Shown here piece after piece: positions 36,817 to 40,646 of a stretch of 40,735 nucleotides of DNA. The stretch is from positions 1 through 40,735 of the IMG/VR virus record IMGVR_UViG_3300025949_000010. One strand, 5' to 3'. Numbering within the stretch: position 1 is the first letter of the stretch; every line of letters begins with the position of its first letter. Made by a program: the position numbers and the translations under genes. Source of the DNA: a virus. Below the pieces are notes generated by a model. That model saw only the letters and a program-made list of their open reading frames with translations, did not search any database and was not told the DNA's origin.

Positions 36817-36892
36817 TAGCGGGGATGGGATTTGAACCCATGATCTCTGGCGTATGAAGCCAGCGGGGACGACCAGGCTCCCCTACTCCGCA
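36817..36892 (-). tRNA. tRNA with CAU anticodon (Met or Ile2), minus strand
   Basis: On the minus strand the cloverleaf is near-complete: acceptor 36886-36892 with 36818-36824, U8-A9, D stem GGGG/CCCC, anticodon stem CTGGC/GCCAG with loop TTCATAC (anticodon CAU), a five-base variable loop, T stem ATGGG/CCCAT with loop TTCAAAT, and discriminator A at 36817. CCA is not encoded. Acceptor pairs 1:72 (U:U) and 6:67 (A:C) are mismatched. An unpaired 1:72 recalls initiators, but the three G:C anticodon-stem pairs of an initiator are absent. CAU could also be the Ile-AUA tRNA. It is the only minus-strand gene. Confidence 0.8.
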
Positions 36893-36975: not shown

Positions 36976-37521
36976 ATGCCATCCGACGCAACCCGCCTCC
37001 CTCCTGACGAGGACATCGCTCGTCTCATCGGCATCCCAGCAGCCGTAGCCGCTGCCATCCGGGCGGTGGAGTCGGGACCCCGCCCGAACCCACGAGCGGT
37101 GAGGTTCGAGTGCCGACTGTTCAACCGAGACTCGCGCTTTCACGTCCCCTTCACCCCTCCGCTTGGGACGAAGGTCGAGACCGACCGGGCAGCATTCGAG
37201 CACGCCATGACGCTGGACCCCGCTACAGCGGTCCGTAGCAGCTCCTTCGGCGCATTTCAGACGATGGGCGCCCATCTGCTCGCTGTGACCGGAAAGGGCC
37301 CTGTGGAGGCTCTGGCGGCCTTCGACGCGTCTCCGGCGAAGCTCTCCGTAGCGATGCTCGCTCACTGGGTCCACGGCGTTCCTAGGTTCCTGGAGTGGGC
37401 CAACGCTGACCCACCGGACTTCATGGCGATCGCCCTTCGGTGGAACGGGAAGGCGAGCTATGCGGCGAAGCTCAAAGCCGCATATGACGCCTACATCGCG
37501 AAGTGGCCCGAGCGGGGCTGA
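36976..37521 (+). CDS. Endolysin, N-acetylmuramidase (DUF3380 family)
   Basis: A 181-residue protein. IARLIGIPAAVAAAIRAVES contains the probable catalytic Glu32. It is followed by RAVRFECRLFNRDSRF and then the family pattern FEHAMTLDPATAVRSSSFGA, FQTMGAHLLAVTGKGPVEAL, and the final FMAIALRWNGKASYAAKLKA. This family cleaves peptidoglycan glycan strands and is typical of phages of Gram-negative hosts. There is no N-terminal binding domain and no signal peptide, so release by a holin is expected. No Shine-Dalgarno is visible before ATG 36976; a TAGCCT box 10-15 bases upstream might give a near-leaderless message. Confidence 0.85.
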   Translation: MPSDATRLPPDEDIARLIGIPAAVAAAIRAVESGPRPNPRAVRFECRLFNRDSRFHVPFTPPLGTKVETDRAAFEHAMTLDPATAVRSSSFGAFQTMGAHLLAVTGKGPVEALAAFDASPAKLSVAMLAHWVHGVPRFLEWANADPPDFMAIALRWNGKASYAAKLKAAYDAYIAKWPERG

Positions 37522-37852: not shown

Positions 37853-39001
37853 ATGCGATTGATGGTCCAAGATTTCCTCGTCAACCGAGGCGCGTCCGAT
37901 TTGCGCTCGATGCACGGCGTCAAGCTCCGCTGGAGCCAGAAACGGCCTGGCGTCTTCACGCTCAACTATGACCAACTGGAGGTGGTCGACACAGACCCGC
38001 TCTCCCAGGAATGCCGAGGTCTCATCCTCAGAGCCATTGGCGGTCAGGTGACAGATGATCGGCCAGTCGGTGCCACTGAGATTGTGGCGTTACCATTCGC
38101 TCGGTTTTTCAATCATGGGACCGGTCCGTGCGCCCGCGTGGATTTCGATTCCGCCCGCTTCTACGAGAAGCTAGACGGCACGCTGTGTATCGTGCACCAC
38201 GACGGTGGCGCATGGCACGTGGCCACCCGTTCAGTGCCGGACGCGGACGTCCCGATCGACGGCGGCGACCCGCAAGCCACGTTCCGGACGCTCTATGAGA
38301 GGAGCCTCCCGCCCGGTGTCGCTCTTGGCGATGGTTTGGACCCGTCCTGTACATACATGTTCGAGCTGACAGCGCCGGAGAACCAGGTGGTGGTCAGGTA
38401 CGATGATCGCGCGGTGACGCTGCTCGGCGTCCGTGAGGTGACCACAGGTCAGGAGCGCGATCCCGCGCTTGTCGGGCCGACCTATCGTGTCTGTCCGTGG
38501 CACTCGATCACGCTGGAGACGATGTTGGAGTGGATCGCCGAGCGCGATCCGGCCAAGCATGAGGGCGTGGTGGTCTGCGATTCGCAGTACCGCCGGTGCA
38601 AGGTCAAGAGCCCTGGTTATGTGGCGCTAGCGCATACGCGCGAGTCTGTTGGCAAGTCGCCACGCGCGATGATGGAGCTGATTCTGCTCGGCAAGGACGA
38701 CGACGCCCGCCCGCTCCTACCGGAGTATCTCTACCCACGGATAGACGCGATGAAGGTGGGCTTGGCGGCAGAGCTTGCCCGAATCGATGCGGCATACGAG
38801 CACCTACGACCTCACAACGACGATCGGAAAGCGTTCGCGCTTCGCATCAATGCCAGCGCCTACCCATCGGACATGGCAGCGCTCATGTCCAGGTTCGCTG
38901 GCAAGTGCCAAGACGCTGCCGGGTGGGTGCAGCTCGCCAAGAAGGAGGGGACGTGGCCCCCGGCGTTCCTTGACGTTCTCGTCGAGCGGGCCGCGCGGTG
39001 A
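37853..39001 (+). CDS. RNA ligase, T4 Rnl1-like
   Basis: A 382-residue protein with GGAGG six bases before ATG 37853. Nucleotidyltransferase motifs: ECRGLIL (53-59); motif I YEKLDGT with the AMP-accepting Lys106; motif III region YMFELTAPENQVVV from residue 168; motif IV EGVVV (237-241); motif V RCKVKSPGY with Lys250 and Lys252. The C-terminal 120 residues are helical, as in Rnl1. Such enzymes reseal tRNAs cut by host anticodon nucleases. A tRNA gene lies 1 kb upstream. No polynucleotide kinase/phosphatase partner is visible, so it would rely on host end-healing or on other substrates. Confidence 0.88.
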   Translation: MRLMVQDFLVNRGASDLRSMHGVKLRWSQKRPGVFTLNYDQLEVVDTDPLSQECRGLILRAIGGQVTDDRPVGATEIVALPFARFFNHGTGPCARVDFDSARFYEKLDGTLCIVHHDGGAWHVATRSVPDADVPIDGGDPQATFRTLYERSLPPGVALGDGLDPSCTYMFELTAPENQVVVRYDDRAVTLLGVREVTTGQERDPALVGPTYRVCPWHSITLETMLEWIAERDPAKHEGVVVCDSQYRRCKVKSPGYVALAHTRESVGKSPRAMMELILLGKDDDARPLLPEYLYPRIDAMKVGLAAELARIDAAYEHLRPHNDDRKAFALRINASAYPSDMAALMSRFAGKCQDAAGWVQLAKKEGTWPPAFLDVLVERAAR

Positions 39002-39903
39002 GCCGCTACGGGCGCATCCGCTCCATCAAGCCGGAGTGGAGGTCTGATCAGCGGATGATGCGGGCCGGGCACGAAGCCCGCATCTTGTCCATTGTTCTGC
39101 TTACGCTCGCTGACGATGAGGGCCGTGGTCGCTGGATCGAGCCGGTCATGGCCGCTGAGGCGTTCGGCTACGACTCGGACCCGCTCGCGAGTTTGTCGCG
39201 AGGCCTCGCGAGCTTGTCGGGCTGGTACGTGCAGGTTTACGAAGTGTCCGGCGAGGGGTATTTTCAGGTCATCAAATGGGCCAAGCACCAGAAAATCGAC
39301 CGACCGACCGAAAGTAAGCTTCCGCCGCCCCCAGCAGGCCAACTCACTGAAATTATAGCCACTCGTGCATCTTCTCGCGAAGCTCGCGAGGAAGTCGCGA
39401 GGCCTCGCGAGGAATTGGCGTCTGGATCTCGGATCTCGGATGTAGGATCTCGGATCTCGGAGGTGGGAGGAATTTCGCCGCCCGTCGCGATTCCAGACGA
39501 GTGGCCTGGCCCACTCCCGAGACCCTCCGATGACAGTTTCGATAGGCGGTCGTGCAAGTACCTGATGGCTTTCGCCACAGCCTTTCGCGCCACGGGCGCC
39601 ACAGCCTCCCCGTGGATGAACGGGATCGGTACGCGCGAGTGCCACGAGTTGGCCAGATGGCTGGAGTCCGAGTTCAAGGACACCGCGTTAGAGACCGCAG
39701 GAGCCCTTGGGAGCGGTTTTGCGAGGTCATCCTATGCCAAGCGCCAGGGCTACCGCTTCCGTGGCTCTGGGGGGCTTATAGACGGTCCTGGCGAGTTCCT
39801 GAAATCCGGCATGACTGGGTATGTACGTCCGAGTGAGGTGGTGCACGACACCACGAGCGATGAAGACTTCCGGCTAGCGCTGAAAGGGACGGCCGTCAGA
39901 TGA
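38998..39903 (+). CDS. Replication initiator/organiser protein (lambda O-like role)
   Basis: A 301-residue protein; GTG 38998 overlaps the ligase stop. Residues 4-110 are the common phage replication-protein N-domain: RIRSIKPEWRSDQRMMRAGH, LTLADDEGRGRWIEP, then GYFQVIKWAKHQKIDRPTES, a winged-helix type DNA-binding region. Residues 123-158 are a low-complexity linker (SREAREEVARPREELASGSR) encoded by the repeat arrays. Residues 160-300 form a helical domain, perhaps binding the helicase loader. The gene for a DnaC-like loader follows, overlapping by four bases, as lambda O is followed by P. Confidence 0.78.
   Translation: MSRYGRIRSIKPEWRSDQRMMRAGHEARILSIVLLTLADDEGRGRWIEPVMAAEAFGYDSDPLASLSRGLASLSGWYVQVYEVSGEGYFQVIKWAKHQKIDRPTESKLPPPPAGQLTEIIATRASSREAREEVARPREELASGSRISDVGSRISEVGGISPPVAIPDEWPGPLPRPSDDSFDRRSCKYLMAFATAFRATGATASPWMNGIGTRECHELARWLESEFKDTALETAGALGSGFARSSYAKRQGYRFRGSGGLIDGPGEFLKSGMTGYVRPSEVVHDTTSDEDFRLALKGTAVR
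39185..39211. repeat. Origin-like TCGCGA cluster 1
   Basis: Three TCGCGA palindromes start at 39185, 39196 and 39206, about one helical turn apart. The last two form the perfect 16-base palindrome TCGCGAGGCCTCGCGA (39196-39211), which also occurs at 39395-39410. It lies inside the replication-initiator gene and is read here as SRGLA. Confidence 0.75.
39375..39410. repeat. Origin-like TCGCGA cluster 2
   Basis: Four TCGCGA palindromes start at 39375, 39384, 39395 and 39405, spaced 9, 11 and 10 bases. The last two form a second copy of the 16-base palindrome TCGCGAGGCCTCGCGA, read here in another frame (VARPRE). AT-rich GAAATTATA lies about 20 bases upstream, unusual in this genome, and could be the unwinding element. 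Confidence 0.78.
39424..39458. repeat. Tandem 7-base iterons GGATCTC
   Basis: Five head-to-tail 7-mers: GGATCTC, GGATCTC, GGATGTA, GGATCTC, GGATCTC. Four of them contain GATC, the usual target of Dam methylases, and the phage encodes a Dam-type enzyme. Together with the TCGCGA clusters just upstream, this resembles the iterons inside lambda gene O. Confidence 0.78.
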
Positions 39904-40646
39904 CCGCGAAGATTCACCATCTGGGGCCTGAGGCTGCGGCCATGGTCGCGAGGCTGGAGGCCGCTCGGGACTCGGCCGGCTTCGTGACCGAGGACCAGAT
40001 TCGGGCGAAGCGTGAGGCGTGGGACCAAGCGCAGTGGGGCGACCGCCTCCGCTCTAGCGGCATCTTCGATGAGCTGGACGACGATGCTAAGCGAGCCGTT
40101 CTCGCGAACAGGGCTCGCCCCGAGCTTCCGACCGAGCGCGTCAAGGAGTGGTGGAGCGTCCGTCGACCGCTGGACCCCGACCAGGCGCCATCGGGTCCAC
40201 CATGGCTCTTCCTGTGCGGCGGGAAGGGCTGCGGCAAGAGTACGGCGGCTGCTCACGTGCTCGCGCGCGAGTGGGGCCTCTACACGATCATGTCGACGCT
40301 GATGGCGGACTACACGACGTGGAAGCGAGCCAAGCCGCACGAGCGACACTCCAGCATGTTCGAGCGCTACAAGCGTTCAGGCGTGCTCGTGCTGGACGAG
40401 TTGGGCATGGAGAAGGACAGCGAGGCAGAGGCAGCGCGAGAGGCCTTCTTCGCATTGGTGAACGGTCGGCAGAGCAAGCGGACGCATACGATCGTCATCT
40501 CGAATCTCAGCCGAGATCTGGTGATCAAGAGGGTCAAGACGGGCGTATACGACGAGCGGTCCCACGACCGCCTACGGAGCATTTCCCTCGTACTCGGCTT
40601 CGAGGGGCAGAGCTTGCGAAAGTCGCTGCCCGGCGGAGGTCTGTGA
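39900..40646 (+). CDS. DnaC-like helicase loader (AAA+ ATPase)
   Basis: A 248-residue protein. Residues 1-95 are a helical N-domain, likely for the host replicative helicase or the initiator. Walker A GGKGCGKST (107-115) and Walker B VLVLDEL (162-168) are clear; sensor-like TIVISNLS and an Arg-rich HDRLRSISLV segment follow, as in DnaC/IstB ATPases. It probably loads host DnaB at the origin proposed in the preceding gene. ATG 39900 overlaps the previous stop. Its last 38 bases are repeated at window positions 1-38. Confidence 0.88.
   Translation: MTAKIHHLGPEAAAMVARLEAARDSAGFVTEDQIRAKREAWDQAQWGDRLRSSGIFDELDDDAKRAVLANRARPELPTERVKEWWSVRRPLDPDQAPSGPPWLFLCGGKGCGKSTAAAHVLAREWGLYTIMSTLMADYTTWKRAKPHERHSSMFERYKRSGVLVLDELGMEKDSEAEAAREAFFALVNGRQSKRTHTIVISNLSRDLVIKRVKTGVYDERSHDRLRSISLVLGFEGQSLRKSLPGGGL

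Follow-up and report, generated by a model that had tools for sequence, protein, structure and literature searches.

The window analysed here is a stretch of 40,735 nucleotides, positions 1 to 40,735 of the IMG/VR virus record IMGVR_UViG_3300025949_000010. Towards its end it carries a replication initiator gene (38998..39903, plus strand), whose 301-aa product comprises an N-terminal winged helix (aa 8–101), a linker and a poorly predicted C-terminus; the AlphaFold2 model is confident as a winged helix for aa 11–110 and poor beyond. In a profile search, the product matched phrog_1408 (1.2e-20) and phrog_2149 (2.5e-20), both ‘replication initiation protein’, with the match limited to the N-terminal residues 6–142. 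The gene is followed directly by one for a DnaC-like helicase loader (39900..40646, plus strand; phrog_50, 5.5e-21; Pfam IstB_IS21, 1.8e-5) and preceded directly by one for an RNA ligase / tail-fibre attachment catalyst (37853-39001; phrog_562, 1.5e-40). A search of the window for known RNA elements returned nothing but a tRNA, namely a tRNA-Met (36817-36892, minus strand), which lies upstream of the gene for a muramidase endolysin (36976-37521). A single-sequence search of IMG/VR gave no close relatives of the initiator, and the window shows no DNA similarity to GenBank phages. Conservation was therefore judged from distant homologs.

The original prediction, made from the letters of the window, was that a 16-bp palindrome occurs twice in an initiator gene and is translated in two frames. 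Indeed, TCGCGAGGCCTCGCGA is present in exact copies at 39196-39211 and 39395-39410, both inside the gene that matches the PHROG initiators, and the whole window holds no further site, even at up to three mismatches. The two frames are likewise as predicted: the 39196 copy starts at codon position 1 (TCG CGA GGC CTC GCG, read SRGLA), and the 39395 copy at codon position 2 (GTC GCG AGG CCT CGC GAG, read VARPRE).

Each copy is held by an array of TCGCGA words. Array 1 (39185..39211), within the coding sequence of a predicted helix of the winged helix (aa 62–73), consists of three words at 39185, 39196 and 39206, in steps of 11 and 10 bp. Array 2 (39375..39410), within the linker coding sequence, consists of four at 39375, 39384, 39395 and 39405, in steps of 9, 11 and 10 bp. 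The predicted word counts of three and four are thus correct, as is the spacing apart from the first step of array 2, which, being 9 bp, makes ‘helically spaced’ slightly generous for that array. Both arrays belong to a 30-bp direct repeat (39183-39212 and 39382-39411, 90% identical and 199 bp apart). An isolated eighth word in the gene, at 39485..39490, is out of phase with the arrays and probably incidental. Across the window, TCGCGA is in mild excess (43 vs 31.5 expected; 1 of 100 shuffles), and therefore the signal lies in the local arrays. When the codons of the initiator gene were shuffled synonymously with the protein fixed, the mean count was 1.0 word per shuffle, and none of the 20,000 shuffles reached 8 words or 7 phased pairs.

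Phased word arrays in homologous initiator genes

The exact 16-mer was found in 20 IMG/VR contigs. In 16 of these, some of them near-identical to one another, the site falls within the gene of a homologous initiator, whose protein begins with RIRSIKPEF or a similar string; more words accompany it at steps of 10/11 bp, and in most cases there is a second group farther downstream. Three of the remaining four share one common unrelated context, and the last is in another unrelated gene. An alignment of eleven such proteins, used as a homolog search, returned at least 80 viral and at least 80 bacterial-genome loci, and the initiator gene was readable in 144 homologs among the matches listed, which were not chosen for the word. 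In addition, 433 GenBank phage records match a family member protein.

Among these 144 homologs, TCGCGA is the most enriched of the common 6-mers (12.8-fold). Over the initial 600 bp of the gene it reaches 7.0 (viral) and 5.3 (genome) words per kb, as opposed to 0.5 elsewhere in the loci. Three or more words are found in 107 of the genes, a fraction that may be overestimated for the whole family since the seed proteins were taken from word-bearing loci. The phasing, which is independent of that origin of the seeds, is pronounced: 323 phased word pairs against 2.9 expected from synonymous shuffles. Spacing and frame were counted in 93 non-redundant homologs among the matches listed. For word distances up to 60 bp, pairs fall at 10 bp (109), 11 bp (41), 20–22 bp (61), 30–33 bp (17) and 42–44 bp (5), with two or three exceptions to this 10/11-bp series, and all three reading frames are used (125/120/94 words). 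Two word groups are present in 50 of the 93, most often 204 bp apart; in the usual layout, with arrays about 200 bp apart, one is in the region coding for the DNA-binding domain and one in the linker. The distances between the two arrays favour a period of about 11 bp (R 0.65), a value dominated by one subfamily.

Conservation at the DNA level is clearest in the SRLLAS subfamily (18 genes), where the codon string TCG-CGA...CTC-GCG-AGC/AGT is near-fixed (TCG 17/18, CGA 17/18, CTC 18/18, GCG 18/18), whereas at other places in these genes the same amino acids are encoded by varied codons. Array 1 of this subfamily is located at gene offset 126, at about residue 43–50 of the domain, and that of other subfamilies at about 155–208, which corresponds to helix 62–73 in the window protein. 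Since the position differs between subfamilies, the DNA feature has shifted with respect to the protein. Furthermore, the pattern recurs at 23–35% protein identity to the window protein. The original prediction held that the DNA, not the peptide, is selected, and made this depend on the words being present in related initiator genes. They are present, and the three frames, the 10/11-bp steps that are not multiples of 3 and the shift of the arrays between subfamilies all agree with selection on the DNA. Among related phages and prophages, well over a hundred keep TCGCGA arranged in this way. In one family initiator (L022:3167-4189, minus strand), an HNH endonuclease domain follows the winged helix and precedes the last of the word arrays; arrays are preserved on either side of that domain.

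Exact TCGCGA arrays are absent from about a quarter of the homologs, some of which have no clear substitute. Members without TCGCGA often use TCGACGA, TCACTGA, CTCAAGAG-like or other words, the arrangement being unchanged. Taken as TC-core-GA words, at least three phased copies are present in 119 of 172 genes, compared with 1 of 172 shuffles. The word type (TCGCGA, TCGACGA, TCACTGA) tracks the protein clade, which fits reading of the words by the initiator and is at the same time confounded with descent and host. Within the helix of aa 48–56, TCGACGA users differ from TCGCGA users at position 49 (R to K) and position 52 (A to K); such covariation of winged-helix residues and word is correlational, because word type follows clade. 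Long arrays of different make were also seen: the Thermodesulfobacterium homologs L133 and L134 carry a different word, TCAGATGA/GAAATC, at 10-bp spacing, and in the gut Bacteroidota homologs L139 and L142, TC-core-GA words form 12-bp tandem arrays past the place where arrays usually lie.

In IMG/VR, the arrays are almost confined to this family. A spaced word pair is present in 31 of 33 whole viral records, in 1–5 copies each, and the reversed control pattern in none of the 33. Triple phased arrays in IMG/VR lie inside family genes in 100 of 118 cases among the matches listed, in keeping with the prediction of a probable initiator-binding site comparable to that in lambda O. Among the 18 outside the family, again among the matches listed, L260 and L315 look like family initiators cut by the contig end. 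The 18 also include a member of a different initiator family (L342:2256-3275, minus strand; phrog_2562). An unassigned ORF at L350:13032-13721 (minus strand) has an array of eight or more TCGCGA words; these two suggest that the word is in wider use. A circular 68-kb Rhodococcus plasmid record, possibly a phage-plasmid, encodes a family initiator (L447:1498-2121) with both TCGCGA arrays and GGGAACAG repeats. A 6.2-kb E. coli ‘plasmid’, considered as a replicon with a family member as its sole initiator, is actually a lambdoid phage fragment.

Tandem repeats beyond the second array

Beyond the interval covered by the original prediction, and missed there, the window has GGATCTC tandem repeats (7 bp, 5.4 copies) at 39424..39461 on the plus strand, 13 bp after the last array-2 word. 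They match GGA-type repeats of 5–8 bp at the same place in relatives, about one helical turn past array 2; in many actinophages the unit is GGGAACAG. The 110 bp that follow array 2 contain a strong tandem repeat, defined by 22 or more matches out of 30, in 80 of 172 genes, as opposed to 0 of 172 and 2 of 169 control segments. The periods are 7, 8, 5 and 6 bp, mostly not multiples of 3, and the units mostly begin with GGA (GGAACAGG, GGAACAG, GGATCAA, GGACCTA and others). Several members that use other words still carry the same GGGAACAG repeats, which are common to Hades, PSonyx, P12026, Ididsumtinwong and OneUp despite their different words.

When IMG/VR was scanned for this third element with a 31-mer of GGAACAGG repeats, 124 of 128 sites among the matches listed were inside family genes, every one of the 124 on the strand of the gene; the other four were at the edges of contigs, where three have TCGCGA words next to them. 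The DNA 20–60 bp past the last word is less stable than the locus mean by 0.13–0.15 kcal/mol per step. The element is not strongly A+T-rich and just slightly less stable than the DNA around it, so that it does not look like a classical A+T-rich opening region. The repeats have G-tracts and a purine-rich coding strand, and a G-quadruplex or R-loop role was considered for them from their composition.

A likely origin inside the initiator gene

Repeated sites inside an initiator gene that are conserved at the DNA level, as expected of an intragenic iteron origin, are found here. We consider it likely that the arrays are iterons to which the product of the gene itself binds, and that the gene contains the replication origin of the phage; an origin like those of lambda O and RepA_N, inside the initiator gene, is the most likely reading of the sequence data. 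What is observed is that the arrays exist, are phased and are conserved as DNA, that they occur almost exclusively in this family, and that a third element is coupled to them. From this we infer binding, complex formation, opening and loading, in the following manner. The N-terminal winged helix would bind one TC(N2-3)GA word per helical turn, so that protomers are stacked on one face of the DNA at both arrays. The two arrays, about 200 bp apart, might then be bridged, or wrapped, to form a single complex resembling the lambda O-some. About one helical turn past array 2, at the GGA-type tandem repeats, this complex would open or orient the DNA, and there the neighbouring DnaC-like loader, or in other members a primosomal C-terminal domain, could load the host helicase.

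GC skew, which had been put forward as a check, provides weak support. In the window, the detrended cumulative skew has its minimum at 38313, 987 bp from the arrays (maximum, 14948), as expected for an origin in the initiator gene. Across 17 records the agreement is weak and mixed: the mean distance to the skew minimum is 0.33 of the half-genome vs 0.5 expected (P about 0.006), but in several of them the minimum is far from the arrays, and many may be incomplete.

The words might instead serve as operators through which the initiator limits transcription of its own gene or of the loader gene that follows, with the origin elsewhere. Plasmid initiators often autoregulate, and the words are internal to the transcription unit. 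Nevertheless, operators are normally at promoters, and two arrays about 200 bp apart, with a strand-fixed repeat one turn downstream, are more origin-like. Autoregulation may, moreover, coexist with origin function, and we regard operators in place of an origin as unlikely.

DNA elements kept within a coding sequence for self-recognition are known, the example being aba in bstA (PMC8585504), and the arrays might by analogy be a partition, incompatibility or self-recognition site (parS-like or aba-like) rather than an origin. This is quite improbable, given that the arrays go with one family of initiators across the phages and prophages of many hosts, and that the third element adds a coupled, origin-like part.

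A reader other than the initiator, for instance a methyltransferase or nucleoid protein of host or phage with a role in replication control, is suggested by TCGCGA being a palindrome with CpG sites and by the DNA methyltransferase genes near several member genes. Helical phasing, however, does not point to methylation, and the word changes with the initiator clade. Such a change would be expected of a word read by the initiator, even though clade is here confounded with host; we think a reader of another kind very improbable. Finally, that the repeats lack a DNA function and arose from protein-level selection (on an SRE/LAS-rich linker), codon bias or recent duplication is scarcely credible, for although the linker is of low complexity and TCGCGA is mildly above expectation window-wide, array 1 is inside a structured domain, the pattern survives at 23–35% protein identity, and a codon- or peptide-driven origin is rendered highly unlikely by the synonymous shuffles (0/20,000) and by the use of three frames at 10/11-bp steps rather than multiples of 3.

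Having favoured an intragenic iteron origin, we would more tentatively raise the possibility, which we hold to be somewhat short of an even chance, that the family represents a widespread new class of phage origin, with a three-part code superimposed on the coding sequence of the initiator. It would be defined by two phased TC(N2-3)GA arrays, with a core that co-varies with the winged helix, and by a strand-fixed repeat of GGA plus 2–5 bases that the initiator or loader recognizes during opening in the form of single-stranded DNA or RNA. For most phages, the site at which replication starts has yet to be mapped. If the initiator gene does contain the origin, the origins of hundreds of sequenced phages and many prophages could be located from sequence to within some 300 bp, and such origins would be testable with small plasmids and usable as compact replicons. 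With sites and protein encoded by one gene, the family would also constitute a large natural data set on the joint change of initiator and binding word, and the GGA repeats would point to an opening or loading element of a new kind.

Relation to known initiators and origins

Origins of the type proposed are already known, and what sets this family apart is how the sites are laid out, their exact phasing, the third element and the breadth of its occurrence. The PHROG 1408/2149 initiators (‘RepA-like’ in actinophages) are direct homologs of the window protein. For these initiators, an internal origin, TCGCGA arrays or GGGAACAG repeats are undescribed in the open-access literature searched, and an earlier mention elsewhere is possible. 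Miko RepA (PMC7157519), taken up as a candidate for an experimentally tested member, was rejected: it shares the label, but its sequence is without the family signature. At E 0.01, none of 55 members matched Pfam Phage_rep_O (the lambda O family) or RepA_N, and a PDB sequence search with the initiator gave no match. The C-termini are variable, some members carrying DnaT or Phg_2220_C domains. The nearest folds of the modelled winged helix include the RepA N-domains 4pql (Z 7.1, rmsd 4.3 over 92 residues), 4pt7 and 5kbj, with scores tied with those of unrelated winged helices.

Two known systems come closest. First, in the RepA_N initiator of pSK41, an N-terminal winged helix binds Rep boxes central in the rep gene, the linker is encoded by origin DNA, and the C-terminal domain is DnaD-related (PMC5703833). 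The family shares with it the sites within the gene, and its N-terminal domain is predicted to be a winged helix. For RepA_N, four Rep boxes in one central cluster are described, and neither a further array in the region coding for the DNA-binding domain nor a GGA-type element.

Second, in lambda, repeated initiator-binding sites in the middle of gene O organize a wrapped multi-protein complex (PMC3985674). As in the family, the repeats are inside the initiator gene and a helicase-loader gene is directly downstream. Lambda, however, has four 19-bp iterons in one block, whereas the words of the family, 6–7 bp long and spaced by 10/11 bp, form two blocks separated by about 200 bp, with array 1 inside the region coding for the DNA-binding domain; in place of the A+T-rich region of lambda there are GGA-type tandem repeats.

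Bacterial origins with DnaA boxes and DnaA-trios also combine double-strand sites with short tandem repeats at a fixed distance. The three-part code proposed above would be comparable to the DnaA-trio, in a separately evolved system. The differences are the initiator and the repeat unit, 3 bp in the trios as opposed to 5–8 bp of GGA type in the family.

Enterobacterial variants of the family (L446:446-2460 and L448:1495-2382) occupy the lambda O/P position, upstream of ninB and with a DnaC-like loader; they are without TCGCGA and carry 7-bp GATTCCT repeats, in which the GGA strand is reversed.
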